Assembly (NCBI GenBank): GCA_031289855.1
Contig: JAITOR010000009.1
Location: 1 to 44,889 of the forward strand
Direction of reading: 5' to 3'
Origin: Rickettsiales bacterium
GTDB taxonomy: Bacteria > Pseudomonadota > Alphaproteobacteria > Rickettsiales > UBA1997
DNA length: 44,889 bases
The notes below the pieces were generated by a model that did not search any database, was not told the origin of the DNA, and saw nothing but the letters and a program-made list of their open reading frames with translations. Below are positions 10,027-44,061 of this stretch, in pieces. Within the stretch, counting starts at the first letter, position 1, and the number at the start of each line of letters is the position of its first letter. The position numbers and the translations under genes were made by a program.

Positions 10027-13000
10027 ATGAGCAAACGAAATATTAGAAAAATGATTTTAAAAAATACAATTACTTGTATTGGTTTTGCTTTTATAACTTC
10101 TTTTAATGCAAATGCATTAATATCTGGATTGAGTGGTGGTTCTTCCGGAAATACATTTTGTTCTGATTTAATTTTTGCTAATCGTGCAATTGGTGATTGG
10201 AAAGTTGATGATACTGGAAATAATTTTGTATATGCGGCAGCAGGTAGTGAAGTCTTGTTAACCAGGCAAGTAAATAGTGCATGCAATAGTTTGGCGGCCG
10301 TGGGTCAAACTCTTGAAATACAGGAAGAAACCATAAGAAATGTGGTGCCGTTGGCAAAAATAACAAATAAATCTGCTTCTGATAATAAATGTGATGTAAC
10401 TTATCATATGCCTTTGAAAGAGGAAGGTGTGGATGAGGGCATTGCGGTAAATGGAACGAGTATATTGTTAAATCCTGTTGGTAAATTAAGATTTCCGGAT
10501 GCAAATTCAGTAAATTCAAATACTTGTAGTTACAAAAGTTGTGATGCCTTAACTGTTGAGGAAATTAGAGCAATATATTATCATGAAAAAAAATCAAATG
10601 AAGAAAAATTTGAAGAATTTTTTAAAAGTTATAATGGTACGGGTACAATTATAACACCTAAATATGTAAAATATTGTGAACCAAAGAAATGTACTGCATA
10701 CAATAATCGTGTTTGTACCAATGCTACTCCTGATAATGCGAAAGATTTGTATTGTCATGATATGCAAAATCCAAATTTATTTAAATGGCTGTATGTTTCT
10801 GGAAAATCAGCAACAGAGGCAAAGTTGGATAAAGACGGAAAGCAAGTGTATCATTGTAAATTACATCAGTGTAAAAGAAATGATGCTATATCCACATTTT
10901 GTCCTACAAATTTTGACATTTTTTACAATTATACAAACATGAATTTAGCGGTAACCGATAGTTTTGGCATATCAATGTCATATGACAAATTATATGAGAG
11001 GGATATTTTGTTAAACAATAACTTTAATGCGATTTCACAAAAAGAGCTTTATTGTAGTCCGGCTCCTTCAAATGATGAAAATTGTAAAATTCCAAGAATT
11101 ATAGAAATAAAGGAACTTTCTTGTGGAACCAAGGACACATGTTCAACTTTAATGAATAATAGCAATACTTGCGACAAATATACTGGTATGGATAATAGCA
11201 TCACTTCTTCTACTGATTTTGATTCAATCAAGCAATCTTTTTCATTGCAAGGAGCGGCTTTTGTTGCTGCATATGATAAATGTATAAATGATAATGTGTG
11301 TGAAAATGGGGATTCCGTTTGTATAAATGTTAGAAATGAAAATTGTATATCTGATAAAAAAACTTGTGTTTTTACCACCGATTGTGGATTGTCGATTAAA
11401 AAAAATGTTGAACCTTGTTTGAGTGCAATTGCACAAATATCAGAGCCAAATTCAGTATCCGCTTTCTTCTCTCCATTACCGCATCCAAGAGCAATAGAAT
11501 TAGTGTGTGAAATAGATGGAAAAAGCATTGAAAATTGTAGTGTAAATGATAGCAATGTAATTACTTGTACCGTTACGAATGCAGTGGGTGTAAAAAATAA
11601 GTATGGTGCTTATTATACAAATAATGATGAATCTGATCAGGTATCTAGCGCTCTTACTCTTGAATACAAAAAATGTATAGAAGTTGGTGGAAAGCACAAA
11701 ACTATTTTAAAGAGAAGTTTATTTGGACAATTGGATTCTCCATTACCCCCAACAACAAAAGTGTGGGATAAGGTGGCAGCATGGGCGATAATTGCTGCTT
11801 CACTTGGAACTGCCACTTCTTCTTGTATGCCTGAAGATAATTTTACTGGTAATTATGAAACTTATACTCATAGATTGAATGGTAATAGAGCAAATTTTTA
11901 TAGTAATGCAAAAGATGGTTATAATCCTGAATCTCAAATGTTTTGTGGTAGCGAAGAAGATTTTCAAAAAAGATATGAAGCATATGAATCCAGAAGATAT
12001 CTTTGTGATGACTATCAAAGTGTGTTGAGTAATAATTATTCAAAACATTATGATTCCGGTTGGAGTGCCACATATGTTTCTGGCACCAGACGTACGGCAC
12101 CAATGATGGTGGGAATATGTAGTCCTCTATCTACTGACAATGCTCCCACCGCCAGTGGTTCCACCTATACATGTGGAAATGGTAAAAATTATTGTAATTT
12201 TTTTGATTGGGATAGTTATTATATAAAAGAGGAACCAGAAATAACTTGGAGCACAGAAAAACCAATTGTAACCAATGCAAATGTTAAGGCTTGTATGAGA
12301 TTTCAATCTTTGGCAGATTGGTCTCTTTGCGGTACTAGAACCACAAGAGTTGATTGTGGTATTGGGTTGTGTGAGTTTCAATATAGAGGTAAGGATAGAT
12401 GCTCGGATTTATCGCTCAATGTGTTAGAAAATTCAAATGGATGTGTTTTAGGACATGTTGGTGGAAGTTGTGTTCAAAATGTTTCAAATTCAGGTGGAAC
12501 TCATAAATTTAGATTTAGGTTAGTGAGAGGAGAAAATAGTCGTTTATATGTATTTTTGGACAGAACAACTTCCACTTGTGTTGGAAGAAATACAACATAT
12601 TTAGTGCAAAGTAGTAGTGAAATTGATAATTTAAGAGATATAGAAGATATATATGGGACATGTATTGTTACTGGTGGAATTGAGGTAAACCCGCATTTTA
12701 ATAATAAATTTGAAAGAACACAAATATATTGTAGAGACAGATTGACCGAGAGAACACAAATGAATCTTTGTGCTGATAGTGAAAATAATGCTAATGGTAC
12801 TGGTTGCGAAGGAGATGTAAATACTAACCAAAAGAGAACGTTCAATATGTCAGATTTTTATAGCAATAATCCAATTGGAGTGATTCTTGGAGATTGCAAA
12901 TCAAGCAGTGAAATGAATGTATTTGGTGATGGTAATGAAGGAAAAGTTGCCCAGAGAAAAACGTGTAAAGTTCTTTTATATAAAAGATCTCCAGATGAGA

Positions 13001-16000
13001 GCAACGAAAATTTTTCTGATTTACATGAGCAGAAAAATCTTTTTGGAAAAAATTTTAAAGGAAGATTAACTGCACTTAGTTTGTATGATGATAATAGTTT
13101 AAGCGACAATAATTGTGATGGAAAAATTACCGATGAAGATGTTTTTGGTGAATATTTATTTAAAAATCTTAATTGCGGTTATATGTTTGGTAATGATTAC
13201 AAAATTTTGCCACAAAATGATGGCGAAAATGGTATGGGTGGAAATGTTGTATATAGTTTTGTTGAGCCAGAAGATTGGTGTAAAAAGAAAACTGAATATG
13301 TGAAAGACGAAAATTCAACTCCATTTGATGAAAGGTTTGGGGCAACAGAAAAGGATTATCCTGATGGCAATGGTAGAAATCATTCCTTCCTAATAAATAG
13401 AAAATGTTCGAACTTATTGATGCATAAGAGTGTCGATGTTGATCCAATACTTAATCCGGAAGAAAATCATAAAGCTTCGGAGTGGTTACCTATAGATGTG
13501 GTTCAATATGCCGGCAACAACCAATTACAGGGCAATATTATGGAAAATTCACAATGTACTATAAATTCCGTTGAGAATTGTCGTGGATATTATAATGAAA
13601 AATATTATGAATCTGGTGGAGTGGATAGTTTTGTAAAGGAATCGCAAGGTATACCTTTACCTCTTCCAGTATCACCAAGTGTATATTGGAGATATGCAAT
13701 TAAAGAAAATATGCCCGATTTATTTTTGCCTATAATACAAATTTCGCAATATAAAAAAACTGGAACAAACAATTATTATAATTTTGTAGTTGGTGGAAAA
13801 AATCAATATGTGGATTTCTTTGAACCTTCAATAAAATTGGTGTTTGGTATATCTGATGCCTATGCTTCAATACTTTTTAATAAAAGTGATGTAACGGGAA
13901 ATATATCAACAATATATGTTGCTGGTAGTTCAAGTGAAAATATATCTGTTGGTTATAAATTTAAAAAGTTTGGTCAAATTTACCCTCAATCAAAAGGTTT
14001 AGCGTGTTTGGTGCAACTTTCTACTGATGGTTCGGAACAACAAATAGGTTGTTTAGATAGAGGAACACCAAATATAAATAATTTTATATTGGTGAGAGAC
14101 ACGGATGGGTATGTGCAGACAAGACCTTGGGTGCGAGCCTTTTTTCATAATGGAAACAATCTTTCTGTAACTGGAAACGTTGTGGGAGGTTTGAGGGCAT
14201 ATTTTTTAAAAAATAATTTGTCAATGTCTGATACCGCAGCATTAAAACAATTGATTTTTACAAATTATTCGAGAGTTGATAATACAACGTATTCGGATTG
14301 TTCAAGTTTGCCCACAATAAAAAATGAATATGCTTATTTAAATACAATAGATAATCCTCAAAAAACTTGTAAAGAATTGGAAGAAAAAATTAAAGCTGGA
14401 ATGGGTGAATATACACATTTAAATGGTGAAAATTATGCATATGAGAGTGGTTATCCCATATATATTTCATCTTCCTATTGCAGTAAAGTTCATTATGATT
14501 GTGTCAATTTTACAAAAGAAGAACAGGTGGAAAATGCTAAATCACCAAGAGATGAAAATTATTTGTCTATTTTAAATGCTAAAATAAGAAATTGTGAGTC
14601 ACAGATTGAAACCTATTGTAAAAAAACCAGCGGCAATGAAAGAACAATTCAATTGGATGAAAATAAGACAAACGGCACATTAACAAGGATAAAAGAAAAC
14701 TATCTTTTAAATACAAGCGCAAATGAAATGTGTGTAACAACTGGTTTTGAGAGGTATTTTAAAGGTGGGGTCAATGCATCTAGTGTGAAGGCGGTAAAAT
14801 TGCAATACTATTATCCTGAATTGGAAGGCATTGGAAAATGTATATTAACTAATGAAAGTAAAGGAAATCCAGCATGCAGAATAAGTGATTATTATACATA
14901 TTGTGAATATAAAGAAGGTATAGAAGATTCAACATGTAATCCATTGGTTGATGTAGCGCCAACACAAGATGATATGGAGGATTTAGGAGTATCTTCTTTG
15001 CCAAATACTTATTTTTGCAGACTTTCTGTCAAAAATTGTGTTAAAAGGGTATCTTGTGATTGTAATGAGAATGGAAATGGTGGTATAAGTAGATGTATTG
15101 ATTTGCCAGAGCAGTGTTTTAAGGGTGGTAGTAATTTGTATAAAACTCTATATAAGGGGGCTTTGAAAGATGTTACGGAAGATATAGCACGAGAACCAAG
15201 TTGCAATTGTCAACTTGTAAGTGAAGATGCTTTGGATGGAGTGGTGGTAAATTCAAACCAAGAGTTAAGAAATCCAACACCAAGAGAATTTGGTTTATGT
15301 GCCCCTTTGCAGGATTTAGATTTTTGTGAACCAGTGAAATATTATAACGAAGATAGAATTTATTTAGATGGAAATGCTGGTCAGCCATTATCATGGTTAA
15401 AAAACAATTCTCCTGGAAATTTATGGAGGACAAATCAAAAGGTTGAGGGAAGATATTATTCTGTTGATGATTTAGGACATGCTGAATTTAGTAAATCTAA
15501 TGTTTGTAAAGAAGATATTGGAAATGGAAATGTAAGTGATGAAGATTGGAATAAGAATTTTTGTTTGAATGGAGAGTATTCATATCATGAGATAACTGGT
15601 GCAGAATGTATTAAAGGCACTGATAAATGTATTACCAGTATACTTCATTCTGGAAGTTGTGGTGGTTTTTGGAAGAATAAAATTTATGGAGAGGAGGGTG
15701 ATGAAGACGCAAGAAAGGTTATACCTTTGGCCACTTGCACTTATTTTAAAACTTGTGCTCCAGGTGATAAAGGATGCTCCATTACTGGTAAAATGCCATG
15801 CGCGAAAGATAATGAAGGTTGTTCGCCTTATCCAGTATTTTTAATGATGGATAATACACAATGTGAAAGATATACATGTCCTGATGTTCGTGAAAATGAA
15901 GTTTTTATAGAAGATGAGGACGAAATAGCAGATTATAGTGAAAGTGAAGAATTAAAGGATATGACGGCCGATAGAAGAGGACAAAAACATGGTTATGCGA

Positions 16001-19000
16001 CTTGGATTAAATATAAGAAAGGAACCGATTTGTATGATTGTGAAAATGGTGGAAATTGTGCTTTTGAGATTAATGAAGCAAGAAATTCTGTTGCCACAAC
16101 AAAAGTTGGAGAAGATGGAATAGCCGATGAAGAATTAGAAGCCAACAATTCAACCACAAAATATTCTAATGTTAGGACGGGTGTTGAAAATGGAAAAGGT
16201 GATGATTTGGAAGAAAGATACGCCAATGCATGTGTGCAAGGTTTTGCGCCTGCCGGTTCTAATTTATTTTTGAGAGAATTTAATGCTGCTAATGCATTTG
16301 TTGGGATAAATGATAAATTTTCTCTTGATACTTCAAAACCTGTAAACATGATACCATACATGGTAGAACAAGATAAATTTATGAGATCTGCGCTTGGTTA
16401 TGATGTTGGGTATTATTTTTATTCAAGAGACAAAACGAAAAACGATAGCAAAATAATAAATTATAACAATTTTGTTGCTTTAACTGGATGGTCAGCATTA
16501 GAACACTTGCCAATTAGAAGTTGTAATCAGGTGGGGGAATGGATGTCTCCATATGACATATACAATATACATGGTGTGGCTGGGTATTATAGAAAGAGTG
16601 GTATTTTTGAAAATGGTGTAATTGCGGAAACTTGTGTAGGTGATTTTAAAACTTGTAAATCCGCTTGTTTAGAGACAAAAGAGAGAATAACTGATGCCAC
16701 ACCTGATATTTGTGCTAATGCTTGTATGGAACCATTTAGTAATTGTATTGCTAATGCTTGTCAGTCTAATTACACAACTTGTACGAATTCTTGCGATGCT
16801 ATAACTTCGAGTAATGAAGAAAGTGAGGATGAAGATGGGGAAGATGAGGAGGATGAGGAAGATGGTGATACACAAACTTCGGCATCAAGTAATCAAAGTT
16901 GTCAAGATCAATGTATGGTTGCAAAAAATAGTTGTACTAATACTTCACTTTCTGCAAATCTTAATTTACAAAATTTGGATAAATTTCCACAATATTTAGG
17001 AAATTATTGCGAAAGATTGTATTGTCCGGGCTATGATGATGGCGATGTTGGGTTGTTATCAATAGAAAAGTGTGATCCAACAAATACAAATATAAATAAT
17101 AAAAATAAAGATAATTGTTCTATGTTGTCAGATGATAAAATAGAATTCACTATTCCAAGTTCCCAAAGCAGTGGAAATGAAACTGTTAGATATAGTTTAT
17201 ATTATTCTAATGAAAAAAATTATGACAATTATCCACTTGGTTTATATGAAGCGGTAAATTTACTTTCATTCCCAGCATCTAATCAACCAGAAAATTATAT
17301 TGATTTAGGTCCATCTGATCCTGGAGCACAAAATACGAATGTTTTGTTTGAAGAATATAGGAATAATGGTTACAAAACTCCAAAAATTCCTTTGGAATTC
17401 GACACAAGAATAAACAATGTAATGAATAATAAAAATACCATTTGGAGACATACTGGTGGAGCAATTTGGGCTGAAACACCAACCCCTAGAAATAATGATG
17501 TGATCTCATATCAAATTCAAGGAAAATGTATTGAAGAAAGAAAATTTTATGCCGAAAATACATTATTCTTTGCTGGTTTTGAGCCGCAATTTAATAATGT
17601 AATGCAAAATTTAGGAGTTAGTACAGATAATGTTTATACTGAATATGGAGTAAATCATACCAATGTATCGAAATTTTTAAGTTCAATGAAAACAACGCCA
17701 AAAGGAAATTACATAATAACAAATCCCGAAATATCCTCTTTCTTTAAAGACCCAATGTCAGCAAATACTCAACCAACTAGAAGTTGTGGCAAATGGGGAC
17801 AATGGAGTGCAATTAAAAATGGTTGTTTAAGTGTTTGTGAGGCTTTGGATCCGTTTAGAACGACATTTAAAGATACAAACAAAAACGGATTCTTGGAAAA
17901 TTGGGAAATTACGGAAATATTTTCAAAACCAAGATACAATAGTATTGAAAATTGGTGGAGAAATGGGTTATGGGCTGAAATAAGGCAAGAAGAGGGTTGG
18001 ATAGAAAAATCTGATGGAACCATTTGTAAGGAGTCTTCTACATGCACATGTGATAAAGGTGGTGATGGAAGTTGTGATGATATAACTTTTTATAGGGGAT
18101 GGGGTGATTATGTAACAAAAATGCAAATGGTCACAAGATCTGGTTATATACAAAAATGGTCAGGTGAAATTTGTGAAAAAGGAAAACCTAATTGCACTTG
18201 TGATATCGGAAAACTTCGTAACAATGGATCAGTTGCTTGTCAAATGGGTGATATTGTTTATAATAATGATAGTTGTGATGTTGATCCTGGAAATGATTGT
18301 TCTAATATTGCTGGAAATACTTGGAGCAGAATTAATGGTGATGATATGATTTTAAACAATAATATAAGGACATATAATGGCAATAGATATGGCGATAGAT
18401 ATACTGGTGGTGCAAAATGGGGAAGATCTTTGGGTGGTTTAACCATAACTAACATTATTATTAGAGATGGTAGAAATGAAACATATGTGGCAGATGAAGA
18501 TGATAAAATTTATATAAAAGGAACTTGTTTTTCATTGGTGGGTAAAAAAATAGTGGAAAATAGCAAATGGGTGGAAGGCTTTCCAACAGATGGTGCACTT
18601 TTTGTGCAAAGTGGCGATAAAAACAATGTTTTTGAGGGTGCTCCTCATAGAGAGTGTTTGGCTGATGGAACTTGGGGTCCCGTTATTGATCCATGTATAA
18701 ACTTCACAACTTGTGTGGATTTTAAAATTACAAGCAAAAACATGTTACAGTATATGATAGATACTGAGCCTCAAAATAATACACCTTTAACTATGGATGC
18801 AAAAAATCGCGTAAATATTGATGTTAAAGGCGTTATATCGCATACACAATTTGATTTTCAATTAAAAAGTGATGAAACGGAAGATGTAAAAACCATTGGA
18901 ACGCTTGAAGGTGGTAAATTGAATTATTCTGATATATTGACTGCTCAAAGAACAAACGTACCAACTCTACCAGTGGAAATTAATTGTTCTCAAGCAAGTT

Positions 19001-22000
19001 CATCGTTTGTGGATACAATAGGATATAATACATCTAATATAGCAACCATAAATGTGAACAACAACTCTGTAAATACACCTTCAACTAATGAAATAGCAGC
19101 AGCAAAAACAATAACTCCTAAAATTGGAAGACTTTGTAATGTGGCGACTGGTGATTGGGAGCCCGGTTATAATAAATTTGAATGTAGAATGAAATCTTGT
19201 GGTGATATTGCTTATTCGGTTGGTACTGGTGATGATAGAATTGTCATAGTTGATTACAAGGCGATAGCAACTAATGATAATATAGGAATAAGTGGAACAA
19301 CTAATCCAAGAAGTATTGGTAAAGTTATAAATAAAATTGAAGGTTTATTTTACCCAAAAAATTCTGGTTATACAGGATCAGTTGAATTTGGTAATTTTGC
19401 GGATCCTAATAAACAAGTTTTCAAAAATTACGAGTTTAAAGCACAATGCCCCGAAGGTTACAAATATTGTGAATTACATTCAACGAATGGCAATATTATT
19501 TGTAATGGGGATAGCGGTGTTCCTCAAGATATGGAGACTCAGATAACTTTCACTTGTGAGTTGGAACAAGATAGTCCGTCGGCACAAGCGATATGGAAAC
19601 GAAAGGGTGAATGTGTGGCTCAATATTGTATTTGGCAAAATGACTTTGGTTCTGGAACCTATACATCGAATGCAATAGGCACAAGTTTACCTTGGAAGCA
19701 AAAACAAATGATAATGCCTTATGCGAAAGATAATACAACGTATGTGGGCGGTTTAAATGCTGTGGGTGGTTTGCCGGCTTTAAATTCTAGATATATGCCA
19801 GTTAGTAGTGATACTTCTATTGCGGATAGAGATGTGAAGAAAAATTCAAAAACTTACACACAACCTCAATATAATTATAGTTACAATATATCCAATAAAA
19901 AGACATCCGCTGTTGTGACAACACCTAATGTAAATGTAAAGCAAAATTTAAGAGCACTTTTGACGAGAAAAACTATTTTGGAAAATAATAGCAGTGGTCT
20001 ACCATTTGAAAGTTTGGGTATATATAGCCCATCGGTTACAATTTATAAAAATTTTATGGCTAATGTAAATAAAAAATATATTTTTTCTCAGTCAGCAAAA
20101 AAATATAGTACGGCGGTTAGCACTGTAAGTATAGAAAATGATACAACCACTGATAGCAAGACACTTTTAAATTATATTACTGGTGTGGAGGCTAATATCG
20201 ATTTCTTTATTGGTGATTCTTTTACTTCAACAATAAATGATCCCATTTCCAAAACAGCACTTGAGGATTTAGAAAAATTAGGAAAAGTAACTGTGGGAAC
20301 TGAGATAAGAATGGATGCTTATTGTGTAAGAAAAGTGGGAAGATACTATCCAAAAGATAACAAAATAATCGCCAAATGCAATCCTCCAACAAGTGGTGGT
20401 TTGGTTGGGAGATGGGAAGTTAATACTGACACAAACGCAAAGTGCAAAAAAGTTTGTGATTTATCAAAATTACCTTTTGATCACACTGGAATTTGGTGGA
20501 GAAGACAAGTTACAGATAATATTGCAACTGCTACTATGGGTGGAAGTGGCCAAAAGATTGGAAATTCGGTTAATTATCCGGGTATTGTGCCAGTTTTTGT
20601 TAAGGATAAAGTTTCTGCTAATATTAAAGATTACAGAAAAGATCTTACAGATAAAGCAATATCAGCCTCTAAACCTAATATAGCAGATTGTACTTCAGCA
20701 GATTGTGTTACCGCTAGAAAAAAATTAGAAAATTTTGTATTTAATAACATTACTCTTAAAGTTACTTCTAAAAGTATATATAATGAAGATAGGGAACCAG
20801 TTGTCAATGACGGATTTCAAACTGGTGCATATGGAACAAAAAGTAGATATGTGGAGTCGGGTGGTGTGGTTATTGGATATTGTGATGATACAAGAATGCT
20901 TACAGGAGATAATGTTGAATTCACATGTAGTGAAATGAGTGATGGTAGTATGAAATGGACGACAGAAAAACCCGCAGATTGTAAAACATATTCAAAAACT
21001 TCATTAGAGGGAATACCGGCCAATATTAGTCTTTGGTTACGAGTTACTGGAGACGACGACGGCTCTCAGGATGATGCAAGGGTAGATATTTCTGATAGAT
21101 ATAGTGCCACTACAAACATTTTTTATGTTAATTCCAATCATGATAAACTTCTTGTTGGTGATGTAAAATATGGTGCTTCTAATCTTGCAACAACCGACGC
21201 TACTAATTATGGTAGTACGGGTTCATCATCGTTTGGTACTTATTCGAGATTGGGGGTACAAAAAGCATGTAAAATATCTGTTGTTGCCGCCGGAGCAAGT
21301 GGATTATGTAAAACGGATGCTTTGACAGCGAATAGATATAGGGCAACTGCTCTTAACAGTGATCATTATGATGCCGTTTACACAAATAGTAGTAATTCAA
21401 CTAAATTAGCTTCTTTTTTAAACTCTACTACTGCGGCTCCTTTTACAAAGGGTGAAGGTTTATTGTATACTCAGTTTACTAATCGTGATAATGGTTCTAG
21501 TGGTTATGGTTTTGGTGGTTTTTTTGAAGTAAATCCTGTTTATACGGATACTACCGCTTACAATATGTATACTTGTGATGCCAGTGAAATAGAATATGGA
21601 GGTGATTTGGTGGATGTTTTTCTTAATGGCAATGATCGTTTTTCTGGTAAAAGAAGTGCTAAATGGTTTACGGCCAATAGTGTTGTTATTGCTAAATGTG
21701 GAGGTAAAACTGAAAATGATATGAAAAATGAAGGATGGGGTGTTCTTTTCAAATGTAACGCTAACGGAACATGGACAAGAACAAATAACTGTGCTAAAGA
21801 TAATTTGTATTATTGTGATAATGAAAGCGATAATGTATCACACGAGTCAGCGAAGAATTATAGCGGAGTTTGTTATGATGGTAATAGAAGTGAGACTTTA
21901 AATTTTAGAAGTCCTGCGAAAGAAAGAGTTTATATTGGTTTTCCAAAAATAATTGGAAATTGTGGAAGATGGAATAGAGATGCGGGTGCTTGTAATAAAC

Positions 22001-22221
22001 CAGTTTCTGCTTGCTTGGTGGCAAAAATAACTTGTGATATATCAGAAGGCTATAAAAAGAAGATTGAAAAGATAAATGGTAATGGATGGGCTAGCACTGG
22101 TGTTGGAGGAATATATTATTGGCAAGATTGCAGTAAAGTAGCAGATGATTATACTTGTAAATATTCGCAACAAGATAATTATGGTACTTGGGTTGATAGT
22201 ATTCCAGAGGGTATATTTTAA
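10027..22221 (+). CDS. Giant (4064 aa) Cys-rich predicted secreted/surface protein
   Basis: Single uninterrupted ORF; signal-peptide-like N-terminus (MILKNTITCIGFAFITSFNANA); Cys-rich throughout with recurring C..G.W..C motifs. Confidence 0.93.
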   Translation: MSKRNIRKMILKNTITCIGFAFITSFNANALISGLSGGSSGNTFCSDLIFANRAIGDWKVDDTGNNFVYAAAGSEVLLTRQVNSACNSLAAVGQTLEIQEETIRNVVPLAKITNKSASDNKCDVTYHMPLKEEGVDEGIAVNGTSILLNPVGKLRFPDANSVNSNTCSYKSCDALTVEEIRAIYYHEKKSNEEKFEEFFKSYNGTGTIITPKYVKYCEPKKCTAYNNRVCTNATPDNAKDLYCHDMQNPNLFKWLYVSGKSATEAKLDKDGKQVYHCKLHQCKRNDAISTFCPTNFDIFYNYTNMNLAVTDSFGISMSYDKLYERDILLNNNFNAISQKELYCSPAPSNDENCKIPRIIEIKELSCGTKDTCSTLMNNSNTCDKYTGMDNSITSSTDFDSIKQSFSLQGAAFVAAYDKCINDNVCENGDSVCINVRNENCISDKKTCVFTTDCGLSIKKNVEPCLSAIAQISEPNSVSAFFSPLPHPRAIELVCEIDGKSIENCSVNDSNVITCTVTNAVGVKNKYGAYYTNNDESDQVSSALTLEYKKCIEVGGKHKTILKRSLFGQLDSPLPPTTKVWDKVAAWAIIAASLGTATSSCMPEDNFTGNYETYTHRLNGNRANFYSNAKDGYNPESQMFCGSEEDFQKRYEAYESRRYLCDDYQSVLSNNYSKHYDSGWSATYVSGTRRTAPMMVGICSPLSTDNAPTASGSTYTCGNGKNYCNFFDWDSYYIKEEPEITWSTEKPIVTNANVKACMRFQSLADWSLCGTRTTRVDCGIGLCEFQYRGKDRCSDLSLNVLENSNGCVLGHVGGSCVQNVSNSGGTHKFRFRLVRGENSRLYVFLDRTTSTCVGRNTTYLVQSSSEIDNLRDIEDIYGTCIVTGGIEVNPHFNNKFERTQIYCRDRLTERTQMNLCADSENNANGTGCEGDVNTNQKRTFNMSDFYSNNPIGVILGDCKSSSEMNVFGDGNEGKVAQRKTCKVLLYKRSPDESNENFSDLHEQKNLFGKNFKGRLTALSLYDDNSLSDNNCDGKITDEDVFGEYLFKNLNCGYMFGNDYKILPQNDGENGMGGNVVYSFVEPEDWCKKKTEYVKDENSTPFDERFGATEKDYPDGNGRNHSFLINRKCSNLLMHKSVDVDPILNPEENHKASEWLPIDVVQYAGNNQLQGNIMENSQCTINSVENCRGYYNEKYYESGGVDSFVKESQGIPLPLPVSPSVYWRYAIKENMPDLFLPIIQISQYKKTGTNNYYNFVVGGKNQYVDFFEPSIKLVFGISDAYASILFNKSDVTGNISTIYVAGSSSENISVGYKFKKFGQIYPQSKGLACLVQLSTDGSEQQIGCLDRGTPNINNFILVRDTDGYVQTRPWVRAFFHNGNNLSVTGNVVGGLRAYFLKNNLSMSDTAALKQLIFTNYSRVDNTTYSDCSSLPTIKNEYAYLNTIDNPQKTCKELEEKIKAGMGEYTHLNGENYAYESGYPIYISSSYCSKVHYDCVNFTKEEQVENAKSPRDENYLSILNAKIRNCESQIETYCKKTSGNERTIQLDENKTNGTLTRIKENYLLNTSANEMCVTTGFERYFKGGVNASSVKAVKLQYYYPELEGIGKCILTNESKGNPACRISDYYTYCEYKEGIEDSTCNPLVDVAPTQDDMEDLGVSSLPNTYFCRLSVKNCVKRVSCDCNENGNGGISRCIDLPEQCFKGGSNLYKTLYKGALKDVTEDIAREPSCNCQLVSEDALDGVVVNSNQELRNPTPREFGLCAPLQDLDFCEPVKYYNEDRIYLDGNAGQPLSWLKNNSPGNLWRTNQKVEGRYYSVDDLGHAEFSKSNVCKEDIGNGNVSDEDWNKNFCLNGEYSYHEITGAECIKGTDKCITSILHSGSCGGFWKNKIYGEEGDEDARKVIPLATCTYFKTCAPGDKGCSITGKMPCAKDNEGCSPYPVFLMMDNTQCERYTCPDVRENEVFIEDEDEIADYSESEELKDMTADRRGQKHGYATWIKYKKGTDLYDCENGGNCAFEINEARNSVATTKVGEDGIADEELEANNSTTKYSNVRTGVENGKGDDLEERYANACVQGFAPAGSNLFLREFNAANAFVGINDKFSLDTSKPVNMIPYMVEQDKFMRSALGYDVGYYFYSRDKTKNDSKIINYNNFVALTGWSALEHLPIRSCNQVGEWMSPYDIYNIHGVAGYYRKSGIFENGVIAETCVGDFKTCKSACLETKERITDATPDICANACMEPFSNCIANACQSNYTTCTNSCDAITSSNEESEDEDGEDEEDEEDGDTQTSASSNQSCQDQCMVAKNSCTNTSLSANLNLQNLDKFPQYLGNYCERLYCPGYDDGDVGLLSIEKCDPTNTNINNKNKDNCSMLSDDKIEFTIPSSQSSGNETVRYSLYYSNEKNYDNYPLGLYEAVNLLSFPASNQPENYIDLGPSDPGAQNTNVLFEEYRNNGYKTPKIPLEFDTRINNVMNNKNTIWRHTGGAIWAETPTPRNNDVISYQIQGKCIEERKFYAENTLFFAGFEPQFNNVMQNLGVSTDNVYTEYGVNHTNVSKFLSSMKTTPKGNYIITNPEISSFFKDPMSANTQPTRSCGKWGQWSAIKNGCLSVCEALDPFRTTFKDTNKNGFLENWEITEIFSKPRYNSIENWWRNGLWAEIRQEEGWIEKSDGTICKESSTCTCDKGGDGSCDDITFYRGWGDYVTKMQMVTRSGYIQKWSGEICEKGKPNCTCDIGKLRNNGSVACQMGDIVYNNDSCDVDPGNDCSNIAGNTWSRINGDDMILNNNIRTYNGNRYGDRYTGGAKWGRSLGGLTITNIIIRDGRNETYVADEDDKIYIKGTCFSLVGKKIVENSKWVEGFPTDGALFVQSGDKNNVFEGAPHRECLADGTWGPVIDPCINFTTCVDFKITSKNMLQYMIDTEPQNNTPLTMDAKNRVNIDVKGVISHTQFDFQLKSDETEDVKTIGTLEGGKLNYSDILTAQRTNVPTLPVEINCSQASSSFVDTIGYNTSNIATINVNNNSVNTPSTNEIAAAKTITPKIGRLCNVATGDWEPGYNKFECRMKSCGDIAYSVGTGDDRIVIVDYKAIATNDNIGISGTTNPRSIGKVINKIEGLFYPKNSGYTGSVEFGNFADPNKQVFKNYEFKAQCPEGYKYCELHSTNGNIICNGDSGVPQDMETQITFTCELEQDSPSAQAIWKRKGECVAQYCIWQNDFGSGTYTSNAIGTSLPWKQKQMIMPYAKDNTTYVGGLNAVGGLPALNSRYMPVSSDTSIADRDVKKNSKTYTQPQYNYSYNISNKKTSAVVTTPNVNVKQNLRALLTRKTILENNSSGLPFESLGIYSPSVTIYKNFMANVNKKYIFSQSAKKYSTAVSTVSIENDTTTDSKTLLNYITGVEANIDFFIGDSFTSTINDPISKTALEDLEKLGKVTVGTEIRMDAYCVRKVGRYYPKDNKIIAKCNPPTSGGLVGRWEVNTDTNAKCKKVCDLSKLPFDHTGIWWRRQVTDNIATATMGGSGQKIGNSVNYPGIVPVFVKDKVSANIKDYRKDLTDKAISASKPNIADCTSADCVTARKKLENFVFNNITLKVTSKSIYNEDREPVVNDGFQTGAYGTKSRYVESGGVVIGYCDDTRMLTGDNVEFTCSEMSDGSMKWTTEKPADCKTYSKTSLEGIPANISLWLRVTGDDDGSQDDARVDISDRYSATTNIFYVNSNHDKLLVGDVKYGASNLATTDATNYGSTGSSSFGTYSRLGVQKACKISVVAAGASGLCKTDALTANRYRATALNSDHYDAVYTNSSNSTKLASFLNSTTAAPFTKGEGLLYTQFTNRDNGSSGYGFGGFFEVNPVYTDTTAYNMYTCDASEIEYGGDLVDVFLNGNDRFSGKRSAKWFTANSVVIAKCGGKTENDMKNEGWGVLFKCNANGTWTRTNNCAKDNLYYCDNESDNVSHESAKNYSGVCYDGNRSETLNFRSPAKERVYIGFPKIIGNCGRWNRDAGACNKPVSACLVAKITCDISEGYKKKIEKINGNGWASTGVGGIYYWQDCSKVADDYTCKYSQQDNYGTWVDSIPEGIF

Positions 22222-24970: not shown

Positions 24971-25963
24971 ATGCCTAATTACGAAGCACTGAATGTCTAT
25001 TTGAAGCAGATAACCCATATATTGGATCAGCCAGGTATTGCCGAAATTTCAATAAACGATCCAGGTGAAGCATGGGTGGAAAAAAAAGGTGATATGTTTA
25101 GAGTTGAGATGCCTGAATATACATTGAAGCATTTAAAAGCATTGGCAAGTCTTATTGCTCAGGCAACAGATCAAAAGATTAGTGAGGAAACTCCACTACT
25201 TGGTGCTACTTTACCAGGGGGACAGAGAATTCAAATTGTGATTCCACCTGCTACGGAAGCAACTTCCGTAATTTATTCCATAAGAAAACCGAGTGATTTA
25301 AAATGGTCGTTAGAGGATTATGAGAAAATGGGTTGTTTTGACTCCACATCAGCACAAGCAATCGTTGATACGAATAATATAGTGCTTTCAAGACTATTGA
25401 AGGCCGGATTGATTAAAACTTTTTTATATAAAGCAATTTTTAGTAAAAAAAATATTATTATTGCTGGTGGTACTTCAACAGGAAAAACAACATTTACCAA
25501 TGCCTGTTTGAGAGCAATTCCAAAAAGTGAAAGACTTATAAGTTGTGAGGATGCTCGAGAAATTGACTTGACCGCTTTCCCAAATAGGGTGCACTTACTT
25601 GCATCAAAGGGTGGACAAGGTAGAGCAAATGTTACGACGCAAGATTTGATTGAATGTTGCCTTCGTTTAAGACCTGAAAGAATAATAGTGGGTGAGTTGA
25701 GAGGTTCGGAAGCATTTGCCTTTTTAAGAGCCATCAACACGGGTCACCCTGGTTCTATTTCCACGCTGCATGCTGATACTCCAGCTATGGCACTTCAACA
25801 GTTAAAAATGATGGTGTTGCAGGCTGGACTTGGTATGCCACCAAAGGATATCGTTGATTACATAGAAAATGTGGTAGATATTGTGGTGCAATTAAAAAGA
25901 GGACAAAAAGGTCGAAGATTTATTAGTGAGGTTTATTTTAAAGATTACGACAGAAGCGTTTAG
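24971..25963 (+). CDS. virB11: VirB11-like type IV secretion ATPase
   Basis: Walker A GGTSTGKTT, ISCEDAREIDL, LRLRPERIIVGELRGSEAFAFLRAINTGHPGSISTLHAD. Confidence 0.94.
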   Translation: MPNYEALNVYLKQITHILDQPGIAEISINDPGEAWVEKKGDMFRVEMPEYTLKHLKALASLIAQATDQKISEETPLLGATLPGGQRIQIVIPPATEATSVIYSIRKPSDLKWSLEDYEKMGCFDSTSAQAIVDTNNIVLSRLLKAGLIKTFLYKAIFSKKNIIIAGGTSTGKTTFTNACLRAIPKSERLISCEDAREIDLTAFPNRVHLLASKGGQGRANVTTQDLIECCLRLRPERIIVGELRGSEAFAFLRAINTGHPGSISTLHADTPAMALQQLKMMVLQAGLGMPPKDIVDYIENVVDIVVQLKRGQKGRRFISEVYFKDYDRSV

Positions 25964-25991: not shown

Positions 25992-26020
25992 TTGACATTA
26001 TTTTTTTTATATTATATACT
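25992..26020 (+). promoter_or_regulatory. Consensus-like sigma70 promoter
   Basis: TTGACA - 17 nt - TATACT immediately upstream of the leader peptide/attenuator. Confidence 0.75.
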
Positions 26021-26047
26021 AAAAACATGAATTTAAAAAATGATAAT

Positions 26048-26098
26048 ATGAAAATGATTTATTTATTGAATAACAACTTATTTCATCATAGCAAGTAA
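26048..26098 (+). CDS. Candidate regulatory leader peptide MKMIYLLNNNLFHHSK
   Basis: Short ORF (also in frame with an ATG at 26027) ending at the first arm of an attenuator; contains AAT AAC AAC and CAT CAT codon runs. Confidence 0.65.
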   Translation: MKMIYLLNNNLFHHSK

Positions 26099-26169
26099 TG
26101 CTTGCTAATCATAAATCGTGGTCATATTTGACTTTGCAAGCATCTTTTAATTTAAAGATGCTTGTTTTT
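26089..26169 (+). promoter_or_regulatory. Transcription attenuator with mutually exclusive hairpins
   Basis: 1:2 TAGCAAG/CTTGCTA (26089-95/26101-107); 2:3 ATGCTTGC/GCAAGCAT (26098-105/26136-143); 3:4 CAAGCATCTTT/AAAGATGCTTG (26137-147/26154-164) followed by TTTTT. Confidence 0.78.
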
Positions 26170-26201: not shown

Positions 26202-26921
26202 ATGAAAAAATATTTATTAGTTATAATGGCATTATTAGGAATTGCTAATTTGCAGGCAAAGACTTTAAGAGTTGGAACAAATGCGACATATCCTCCTTTT
26301 GAATCTTTCAATGAAAAGGGAGAATTGGTTGGCTTTGACATAGATTTGTTAAATTCAATCGCTAAAAAATTAAATTACAAATTGGAATATATTGATTTAC
26401 CGTTTGAGGGTTTAATTCAAGAATTGGAAAGTGAAAAAGTTGATTTAGTAATTTCTTGTTTAAGTGAAACTTCCGATAGAAAAAAGAAGGTAAATTTTAG
26501 TGATGGATATATGAAAATTGGTGTTTTTGTTATAGTTAAACAAGACAATAATACAATTAAAAGTGCAAAAGATTTGAAAAAGGGTATTAAACTTGGTGTG
26601 GAAACTGGTTCTTCGCAAGTAAAATATTCTGAAGAAAACTATAAGGGCGTTGAATTAGTGTTTTTCAATAATGTAGATATTTATACTGCACTTGAAACTG
26701 GAAAAGTTGATGCAATTTTGATGGATGATATACCGGCATTAGCATACTTAAAGAGCAAAGGTAAGGGTAAACTTAAAATTGTTGGTGATAAAATAAATCC
26801 AAAAAATGCTGGTATGGCATTTAATAAGAAAAACACAGCATTGTTAAAAGAAATTAACAAAGCTTTGAAAGAAGTAAGAAGTAGCGGTGAATACAAAAAA
26901 ATATATGATAAATGGATATAG
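26202..26921 (+). CDS. Amino-acid ABC transporter substrate-binding protein (SBP_bac_3)
   Basis: Signal peptide; LRVGTNATYPPFESFNEKGELVGFDIDLLNSIAKKL ... GKVDAILMDD. Confidence 0.92.
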   Translation: MKKYLLVIMALLGIANLQAKTLRVGTNATYPPFESFNEKGELVGFDIDLLNSIAKKLNYKLEYIDLPFEGLIQELESEKVDLVISCLSETSDRKKKVNFSDGYMKIGVFVIVKQDNNTIKSAKDLKKGIKLGVETGSSQVKYSEENYKGVELVFFNNVDIYTALETGKVDAILMDDIPALAYLKSKGKGKLKIVGDKINPKNAGMAFNKKNTALLKEINKALKEVRSSGEYKKIYDKWI

Positions 26922-36584: not shown

Positions 36585-36746
36585 TATTAAGTCATTAGTT
36601 TACTATATTTTTTACATACAATAGGCTTTGTGAGAGTGTGCATAAAAAGACATACATTATTTCATATATTTTGGTATTAAATATATTTGCTTTTTATCTT
36701 TTGACCACTTATTATGAAAGTTATAGTATTATAAATTATTATTTTT

Positions 36747-36899
<153 letters not shown>

Positions 36900-39230: not shown

Positions 39231-39256
39231 CTCTCTCTCTCTCTCTCTCTCTCTCT
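39231..39256 (-). repeat. (CT)13 dinucleotide tract (AG on the - strand)
   Basis: Uninterrupted CT repeat adjacent to TTGGTTGACGAA, the inverted counterpart of the 36779 tract and its flank. Confidence 0.98.
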
Positions 39257-39362
39257 TGGTTGACGAAATCTAAACTCATAAAATTTATTTTATTCTATAT
39301 GGTTTCATAATACAATGAAAAAATAAAAAGTAAAATAATTAATTTTGCACTTTATATTTTTA

Positions 39363-42216: not shown

Positions 42217-42270
42217 ATGTTAAATGAAAAAAATTTGCTTATGGCTGTGATGTGTGTTTTACATATGTGA
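42217..42270 (+). CDS. Candidate Met-rich regulatory leader peptide MLNEKNLLMAVMCVLHM
   Basis: Short ORF with four Met in 17 residues, one directly before the TGA, ending just upstream of an attenuator before metG. Confidence 0.6.
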   Translation: MLNEKNLLMAVMCVLHM

Positions 42271-42272
42271 TG

Positions 42273-42330
42273 GAGGTATGCGATTTTTTTTCAATCAATC
42301 ATATCTCACAAAAGATATGATTTTTTTTTT
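42273..42330 (+). promoter_or_regulatory. Transcription attenuator upstream of metG
   Basis: Terminator AATCATATCT-CACAAA-AGATATGATT + T10 (42297-330); antiterminator GAGGTATG (42273-280) with CATATCTC (42300-307), 8 bp incl. one G.U. Confidence 0.7.
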
Positions 42331-42348
42331 AATTAAAATGGAGTAAAA

Positions 42349-44061
42349 ATGTCTGAAAAAACTTTTTTTGTAACAACACCTATATATTATGTAAGTGCTG
42401 AGCCGCATATTGGTAGTTCATATCCAACTATATTTGCCGATGTGTTGGCAAGATTTCATAAATTGGATAATTATGATGTTAAATTTTTGACAGGCACTGA
42501 TGAGCACGGACAAAAGGTAGAGCAATCAGCAAAAGATGCGGGACAAAAGCCAAAAGATTTTGTGGATGAATTGTCAATTAGGTTTAGGGAAATATTAAAA
42601 ACTCTTGATTTACAACCCACGCATTTTGATGTTTTGAATGATAATTTCATAAGAACCACAGACCCAATACATAAAAAACAAGTGCAGGATGTATGGCGAA
42701 TTTTAGTTAAAAATGATTGGATATACAGGGGGCAATATGATGGTTGGTATTGTGTAAGTGATGAGGCCTATTATACTGAAGATGAGTTAGTAAAAAATGT
42801 TGATGGAGAATGGCGAACCACATTGGGTAAAAAGGTAGAATGGAAAGTGGAGGAAAGTTATTTTTTTAGATTAAGTGAATTTCAAGAGTTGTTATTGAAT
42901 ACATACAAAAAATTTCCAGACTTAGTAAGACCAGAGGGTAAAAAAACAGAAGTTATAGCTTTTGTGAGCGGTATAAATGCTAAGGAATACGAGCAGGGTA
43001 AGGCAATTAAAAAAGACTATTTGAGAGATTTAAGCGTGTCAAGAAATAATTTTGATTGGGGTATAAAAATACCTGTTGATACGGAAAACAATGAATTGCT
43101 TGATGGTGAGGAATGGAAGAATGATATTAAAAAAGAAGATAAGCATGTGATTTATGTATGGTTAGATGCTTTATTTAATTATATCGCAGCTCTTGGTTAT
43201 TCCACCAATAATAAAGATTATCAAAAATATTGGTTAAATAGTAGTAAAAAAATAAATCTTGTGGGAAAGGATATTTTGAAATTTCATGCAGTTTATTGGC
43301 CTGCATTTTTAATTGCTTGTAATTATACTCGTGAAGAAATTAAAAAATTAAATAATCAACCATTGGAAGATTTTAAGAAATACATTCCATCAAGTGTTTT
43401 TGCTCACGGATGGCTTACAAATGAAGGACAAAAAATTTCAAAATCTTTAAATAATGGAATTTATCCAGCCAAAGAAATAGAATGGTTGCAAACAGAATTT
43501 AATATTGATAATAGCACGGCAAGGGATTATTTTAAATATTATTTATTAAATGCGGTAAAATTTGGAAATGATGGAGATTATTCGAGGGTTAAACTTGTTG
43601 AAAAAATAAATGGAGATTTGGCCAATAAAATTGGAAATTTAACAAAACGAACACTGGATTTGATATATAAAAATTTTGATAAAAAAATTCCTATTGTAAA
43701 AGATTTTGATAAAATTGTAAACGTAAAAATAGATAATTTTAGAAAACATATTGATGATATTGACATAAACGATTATGTTAATGAGTTATTGCAAATTGCG
43801 GAGCATGCTAATAAATATATAGACGAAAATAAGCCTTGGGAATTGGTGAAAAGTGATAAGGAAAAATCTAGTATTGTTTTATATAGTGTGGCGAATATAA
43901 TTTTAAAAATCGCAATTTTGCTACAACCATTTGTCCCATATCTTGCGAAGAATATACTGGAAGGATTGGGGTATGATAATATTATTGGATTTGATAAAAT
44001 TGATGATAATTTGCGTGGAAATGTAATCGAAGAGCCAAAAATTATAATACCAAGATTGTAA
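42349..44061 (+). CDS. metG: Methionyl-tRNA synthetase
   Basis: TTPIYYVSAEPHIGSSYPTIFADVLARFHKLDNYDVKFLTGTDEHGQKV, VFAHGWLTNEGQKISKSLNN (KMSKS-like). Confidence 0.97.
   Translation: MSEKTFFVTTPIYYVSAEPHIGSSYPTIFADVLARFHKLDNYDVKFLTGTDEHGQKVEQSAKDAGQKPKDFVDELSIRFREILKTLDLQPTHFDVLNDNFIRTTDPIHKKQVQDVWRILVKNDWIYRGQYDGWYCVSDEAYYTEDELVKNVDGEWRTTLGKKVEWKVEESYFFRLSEFQELLLNTYKKFPDLVRPEGKKTEVIAFVSGINAKEYEQGKAIKKDYLRDLSVSRNNFDWGIKIPVDTENNELLDGEEWKNDIKKEDKHVIYVWLDALFNYIAALGYSTNNKDYQKYWLNSSKKINLVGKDILKFHAVYWPAFLIACNYTREEIKKLNNQPLEDFKKYIPSSVFAHGWLTNEGQKISKSLNNGIYPAKEIEWLQTEFNIDNSTARDYFKYYLLNAVKFGNDGDYSRVKLVEKINGDLANKIGNLTKRTLDLIYKNFDKKIPIVKDFDKIVNVKIDNFRKHIDDIDINDYVNELLQIAEHANKYIDENKPWELVKSDKEKSSIVLYSVANIILKIAILLQPFVPYLAKNILEGLGYDNIIGFDKIDDNLRGNVIEEPKIIIPRL

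Follow-up and report, generated by a model that had tools for sequence, protein, structure and literature searches.

How does a small Rickettsiales-labelled bacterium control a solitary amino-acid-binding protein gene, and to which amino acid does this gene answer? The question is raised by a 44,889-nucleotide stretch of a Rickettsiales bacterium (contig JAITOR010000009.1; hereafter the window), in which a promoter, a short open reading frame (ORF) and a set of complementary RNA arms precede a gene of the SBP_bac_3 family. The genome (G000) to which the window belongs, as contig C50, measures 890 kb and is 80% complete (76-80%); 865 kb of it were scanned. We consider it reasonably probable that the region attenuates transcription of the binding-protein gene by a ribosome-mediated mechanism, with a leaderless leader peptide and most likely with His as the sensed amino acid. 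That ribosome-mediated attenuation operates at this leader is, taken by itself, very likely.

The promoter TTGACA-17-TATACT and the CAT CAT pair reported in the initial annotation are present in the DNA as read directly. The promoter has 11 of 12 consensus matches, and its predicted +1 (26027) coincides exactly with an in-frame ATG. The short ORF of the annotation and its stop at 26096 were also found, but its start was probably misplaced. The shorter in-frame start at 26048, which would yield MKMIYLLNNNLFHHSK, is preceded by no Shine-Dalgarno sequence on direct reading. An ATG stands at +1, and 11 of the 14 leader ORFs of the same genome begin no more than 1 nt from the predicted +1; the mRNA is therefore probably leaderless and would encode the 23-residue peptide MNLKNDNMKMIYLLNNNLFHHSK. 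In Sinorhizobium meliloti, trpL is likewise leaderless and its RNA begins with ATG (PMC7298713).

The elements that follow are arranged as in a leader-peptide attenuator. The promoter is followed by a short, putatively translatable ORF ahead of the structural gene, the CAT CAT pair ends at 26089, where arm 1 starts, the stop codon lies between the arms, and the pairings 1:2, 2:3 and 3:4 are mutually exclusive, the last being an intrinsic terminator. Hairpin 1:2 (TAGCAAG/CTTGCTA, 26089-26095/26101-26107, 7 bp) carries the stop codon in its loop, the antiterminator 2:3 (ATGCTTGC/GCAAGCAT, 26098-26105/26136-26143) consists of eight perfect pairs, and the terminator 3:4 (26136/7-26164, 11-12 bp, about -14 to -16 kcal/mol) is followed by T5 at 26165-26169. 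The initial annotation had proposed these three pairings and missed a fourth, an outer helix that encloses hairpin 1:2 (strands 26045-26062 and 26111-26128; two blocks totalling 16 bp, -13.1 kcal/mol). Folding of the whole leader gave z = -5.1, with none of 200 shuffles as stable, and the leader minus its terminator reached -20.8 kcal/mol (outer helix plus 1:2; z = -2.8), a stability matched by 3 of 500 shuffles. Of 20,000 dinucleotide shuffles, 4 had a 2:3 helix of 7 bp or more overlapping a 7-bp 1:2 hairpin, by a criterion picked post hoc, after the sequence had been seen.

The switch logic was examined by folding the RNA 3' of an assumed ribosome edge, with two edge placements per codon. 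When the A site was stalled at Leu, Phe or His codons, the probability of the antiterminator, P(2:3), was 0.99-1.00 before arm 4 exists, except at the most downstream edge of the second His codon, where it was 0.20 (the other three of the four His placements gave 1.00). For a stall at Ser, Lys or the stop codon P(2:3) was about 0, and without a ribosome P(1:2) was 1.00 and the outer helix formed with a probability of 0.98. A His stall favours 2:3 and a ribosome at the stop abolishes it, as the annotation had anticipated for a leader with arm 1 or arm 2 masked.

Leader translation, termination, a His response and ligand specificity are what we infer from the sequence. RNA polymerase would start at about 26027, and a ribosome would initiate on the 5'-terminal AUG and, while translating, open the outer helix. 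A shortage of the cognate aminoacyl-tRNA, most likely His-tRNA, would make the ribosome stall on CAT CAT and cover arm 1; arm 2 would then pair with arm 3, no terminator would form, and transcription would continue into the binding-protein gene, so that more amino acid would be taken up. With charged tRNA in good supply, the ribosome would reach the stop codon and cover arms 1 and 2, so that 3:4 would form and transcription would end at about 26167. If the leader is untranslated, the outer helix and hairpin 1:2 would sequester arm 2, and the terminator would again form.

About 13 similar leaders occur elsewhere in the same genome, usually with the AUG at +1 and with codons matching the downstream gene (Table 1). 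Thirteen regions combine a promoter scoring 10/12 or better with an AUG or GTG at +1 and a codon run, against 0.5 +/- 0.6 (maximum 2) in shuffles, and 11 of them sit before amino-acid genes. The shuffles replaced a reverse-strand control that was dropped, since genes transcribed divergently have their intergenic regions in common. Of the 13 regions, two were rejected as leaders: C3:1861 resembles tRNA sequence, and at C61:23898 tuf lies behind a tRNA. Antiterminator complementarity was found in all eight terminator-type leaders tested (p 0.002-0.055 each). A second attenuator lies in the window itself (42217-42331), where a Met-rich ORF and an intrinsic terminator (42297-42322) with a T-run precede metG (42349-44061). 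Another SBP_bac_3-type gene (C9:3246) probably shares the Arg leader of argG, because it lies directly downstream of that gene. What the analysis shows is the set of sequence elements with its improbability, the logic of the folding, and like leaders with cognate codons across the genome. The ribosome-mediated attenuation claimed by the annotation gains from this: the in-silico geometry is as required, and there are many sister leaders with cognate codons, two of them conserved in a sister species.

Eight leaders have no recognisable intrinsic terminator (G000 C33:2930, C55:44535, C40:13260, C1:7033, C65:7207, C62:7069, C67:18547 and C23:16134). In these, a short hairpin sits inside the run of regulatory codons or immediately behind it, as in FFFFF-CCCGAAAGGG and LLLL-GCCTGTAAGGGC; they may act through Rho-dependent termination, translation or RNA stability. 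We lean towards the view that attenuation by leaderless leader peptides governs most of the amino-acid economy of this bacterium, covering some 14 transcription units and roughly eight or nine amino acids, with several orphan binding proteins each under a leader for a different amino acid, and with an apparently undescribed terminator-less type in which the hairpin directly follows the codon run (leuA, leuC, iorA, paaK, serA, sbpF and others).

Table 1 Features of the His-codon leader and like leaders of the same genome. Identities of downstream genes are from NCBIfam for ten genes; argG and the binding-protein genes were read from sequence.
Feature	Position in window	Strand	Sequence or codons	Remarks
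Sigma70-type promoter	25992-26020	+	TTGACA 25992-25997, 17-nt spacer, TATACT 26015-26020	read directly
Leader ORF, probably leaderless	26027-26098	+	MNLKNDNMKMIYLLNNNLFHHSK	23 codons, ends NNNLFHHSK; stop TAA 26096-26098
Outer helix, 5' strand	26045-26062	+		within leader ORF; folding
Rival regulatory codons (Asn x3)	26069-26077	+	AAT AAC AAC	top-scoring run of this leader; direct reading
Proposed regulatory His codons	26084-26089	+	CAT CAT	abutting arm 1; direct reading and ribosome-edge folding
Arm 1	26089-26095	+	TAGCAAG	pairs with 26101-26107
Arm 2	26098-26107	+	ATGCTTGCTA	pairs with arm 1 or arm 3
Outer helix, 3' strand	26111-26128	+		competitor of 2:3, with which it would make a pseudoknot; folding
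Arm 3	26136-26148	+	GCAAGCATCTTTT	pairs with arm 2 (antiterminator) or arm 4 (terminator)
Arm 4 and T-run of intrinsic terminator	26153-26169	+		folding
Periplasmic amino-acid-binding protein gene (SBP_bac_3)	26202-26921	+		Pfam PF00497, E 9e-43
leuA leader			MFLNSIILLLLLPVRA; Leu codons	NCBIfam
leuC leader			MFYINVISVLLLPVGAYNN; Leu codons	
argG leader			MIILKGLFLRRKVYK; Arg codons	read from sequence
serA leader			MILDKIIYFSFYSSSL; Ser codons	
cysE leader			MIVKKIVFVCICCYG; Cys codons	
luxS leader			MFSKKIISVCMCCDKQ; Cys codons	
Leader of cystathionine gamma-lyase/synthase-family gene			MFLVKKINTCCCILTKSGFLL; Cys codons	
metY leader			...KCMNCCNMMSMCMLTRA; Met/Cys codons	
metG leader	42217-42270		MLNEKNLLMAVMCVLHM; Met codons	
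iorA leader			MMKYNNIFATFFFPRGDIEH; Phe codons	
paaK leader			...SSFFFFFPKGNK; Phe codons	
Leaders of two binding-protein paralogues			MIRSININSFVWWL and MLLTNKFYFFYFLPKGE; Trp-Trp and Phe/Tyr codons	

The same attenuation could respond to Asn, or to Asn and His together, through AAT AAC AAC, with a binding protein that imports Asn/Gln-type ligands. This run is the most improbable of the leader ORF by background composition, the solved relatives nearest to the binding protein are AncQR and glutamine-binding proteins, and the asparagine synthetase domain gave only short partial matches in the genus. However, a ribosome stalled on the Asn run ends upstream of arm 1 (26089) and leaves 1:2 free to form first, as the annotation had argued, and in most placements it gives P(2:3) 0.76 and P(1:2) 0.24 at equilibrium before arm 4, against 1.00 in most His-stall placements. 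The His pair abuts arm 1 and the Arg pair of argG stands 3 nt from its own arm 1, whereas the Asn run is 11 nt away, and Asn is common in other leaders. Position alone cannot tell His from the adjacent single Leu and Phe codons, among which the His pair is the repeated rare codon. On the side of the genome's gene content, the window's genome (76-80% complete) gave no tblastn match for hisG or hisD, and hisD, present in several other family members searched, is absent from both genomes of the genus; this fits a need for imported His. We therefore regard Asn sensing as unlikely and His, given attenuation, as likely the sensed amino acid; the annotation's choice of His is favoured by the codon position next to arm 1, as in argG, but the Asn run is statistically the stronger one.

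Several points weigh against a His-sensing attenuator. There are just two His codons, and AAT AAC AAC is more improbable by background composition. In the complete leader the terminator is thermodynamically the most stable structure in every state, so that kinetics must decide the switch, as they do in classical attenuators. No orthologue of the leader with the His pair or of its binding protein was found in relatives, so that the His codons and stems are without direct covariation support. The nearest solved chains of the binding protein are of Gln/Arg type, and its ligand is not identifiable from its sequence, which has no equivalog-level assignment. The absence of the his genes is uncertain because the genome is about 80% complete. 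Two readings without a leader-peptide attenuator were also weighed. A riboswitch-like ligand-binding RNA, with the outer helix and hairpin 1:2 as aptamer and an incidental ORF, would suit the stability of that fold when the terminator is removed. However, Rfam searches at gathering and relaxed thresholds returned sub-threshold chance matches only, with no RF00514 His_leader, T-box or known riboswitch, so the comparison with known His leaders that the annotation had called for gave no match, and what the 13 sister leaders have in common is an AUG-at-+1 ORF with cognate codons, not a fold. This reading is very improbable. Just as improbable is a mere terminator of the upstream T2SSE-family gene (24971-25963) with a chance ORF and no regulation: the terminator does sit between that gene and the binding-protein gene and would also stop upstream transcription, but a strong promoter intervenes between the T2SSE-family gene and the terminator, six promoter-leader-terminator-gene cassettes with cognate leaders exist in the genome, and the arms are rarely matched by chance (the 4 in 20,000 above).

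Leaders of this kind were also found in a sister species, G001 (metagenome-assembled genome 'Rickettsiales bacterium Ct408_bin57'), of which about 302 kb of a genome of about 900 kb were scanned. An orthologue of the Trp-Trp-leader binding protein, 63% identical, occurs there behind the leader MFVKNTYTGFFWWL, which ends in a stop codon. The argG gene is preceded by an Arg leader in both species (VLFFTRFLRDLRSR in G001), and the G001 argG leader has an antiterminator of -17.5 kcal/mol (p = 0.002) despite its diverged nucleotide sequence. In addition, a G001 gene for an NlpA-family lipoprotein has a Met-rich leader and a terminator upstream. No leader was evident for leuA and cysE of G001, which may be internal operon genes, and metG and iorA were not found in the scanned G001 sequence, which leaves their leaders without comparison. 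Searching the DNA of 56 relatives with the His-codon leader returned AT-rich fragments and a self-palindrome only. Among the genomes compared, the leader system looks restricted to the genus, because no leader peptide was evident upstream of leuA in 30 other family members and none upstream of argG in the Rickettsiales genome L208 (ArgG 78% identical), which also gave no homologue of the binding protein. The annotation's picture of a host-associated-type alphaproteobacterium agrees with the sister genome being recorded as Rickettsiales, and the bacterium is probably gut-associated.

The regulated gene is an orphan, with neither permease nor ATPase beside it. Its product carries a likely signal peptide and belongs to SBP_bac_3 at family level only, as it scores 127.8 bits against the HisJ equivalog NF011965, whose cut-off is 459. 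In the alignment it retains the family Arg that follows the motif S-x-L-S, and also the LMDD Asp; these residues presumably contact the carboxylate and amino groups of the ligand. No relative of this binding protein was present among the genome contigs searched, and no close orthologue was found. Sequence searches located SBP_bac_3 genes at nine loci in G000 and three in G001; genes of this type are expanded in the genus, yet almost the whole family lacks them (3 of 73 genomes positive), a pattern opposite to that of hisD. Since one 3TM-type permease gene was found above cut-off in the genome, several binding proteins may share a single permease.

The mechanism is that of a classical leader-peptide attenuator; unusual are its breadth in a reduced genome, the orphan binding proteins and the terminator-less leaders. 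Like the his operon leader of enterobacteria (RF00514) and other His leader peptides, the region combines a short ORF with consecutive His codons, mutually exclusive arms and an intrinsic terminator before an amino-acid gene. In contrast to RF00514, it has two His codons instead of a long run, gives no Rfam match, and controls an uptake protein in a genome where hisD and hisG were not found. The S. meliloti trpL/trpE(G) attenuator is also alphaproteobacterial with a leaderless leader peptide (PMC7298713), but serves Trp biosynthesis, whereas here His codons precede a transporter component and at least a dozen leaders occur in one reduced genome. In Firmicutes, His leaders with attenuator/terminator hairpins contain 3-5 consecutive His codons (PMC9413887) and are also known for hisZ/hisS* (PMC2965389). 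These and the ABC-leaders share with the region His leader peptides with hairpins and the attenuation of ABC-transporter genes; they belong to another phylum, and the His leaders precede biosynthetic or hisS-family genes (PMC9413887, PMC2965389). No description of such attenuators in Rickettsiales or Holosporales was found in the literature searched, most subscription journals lying outside its scope. The leader peptide would name the amino acid to which its gene answers. If this rule holds, it yields testable ligand predictions for orphan binding proteins of an uncultured bacterium: His for the protein studied here, Trp and Phe/Tyr for the two paralogues, and Arg for the binding protein encoded in the argG operon. 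Fine cis-regulation, whose loss is usually expected, would then have been kept or expanded in a strongly reduced genome of host-associated type.

Some leaders resemble one another. Those of cysE, luxS, metG and the G001 NlpA-family gene have common terminator stems (TCATATCT/AGATATGA), and those of cysE, luxS and the cystathionine-lyase-family gene have the common peptide pattern KKI..(C)n (G000 C9:1664, C61:23185 and C34:2696, window 42217-42331, G001 C29:150-330). They look as if they were paralogous leaders re-targeted by codon change. Phe leaders precede iorA (indolepyruvate ferredoxin oxidoreductase, C40:13260) and paaK (phenylacetate-CoA ligase, C1:7033), suggesting that Phe may be made from phenylacetate via reductive carboxylation.

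Elsewhere in the window, a dispersed repeat of roughly the form ATGAAATTTATTAAATTTAACTTCGTCAACCCA(GA)9-20, often flanked by TTAAGAACTTC, lies at 36720-36830 (+) and 39232-39320 (-). The genome has 16 (GA)n tracts, most with the flank of this repeat, which is possibly a phase-variable or mobile element. An ORF of 4064 aa at 10027-22221 (+) would encode a giant protein.
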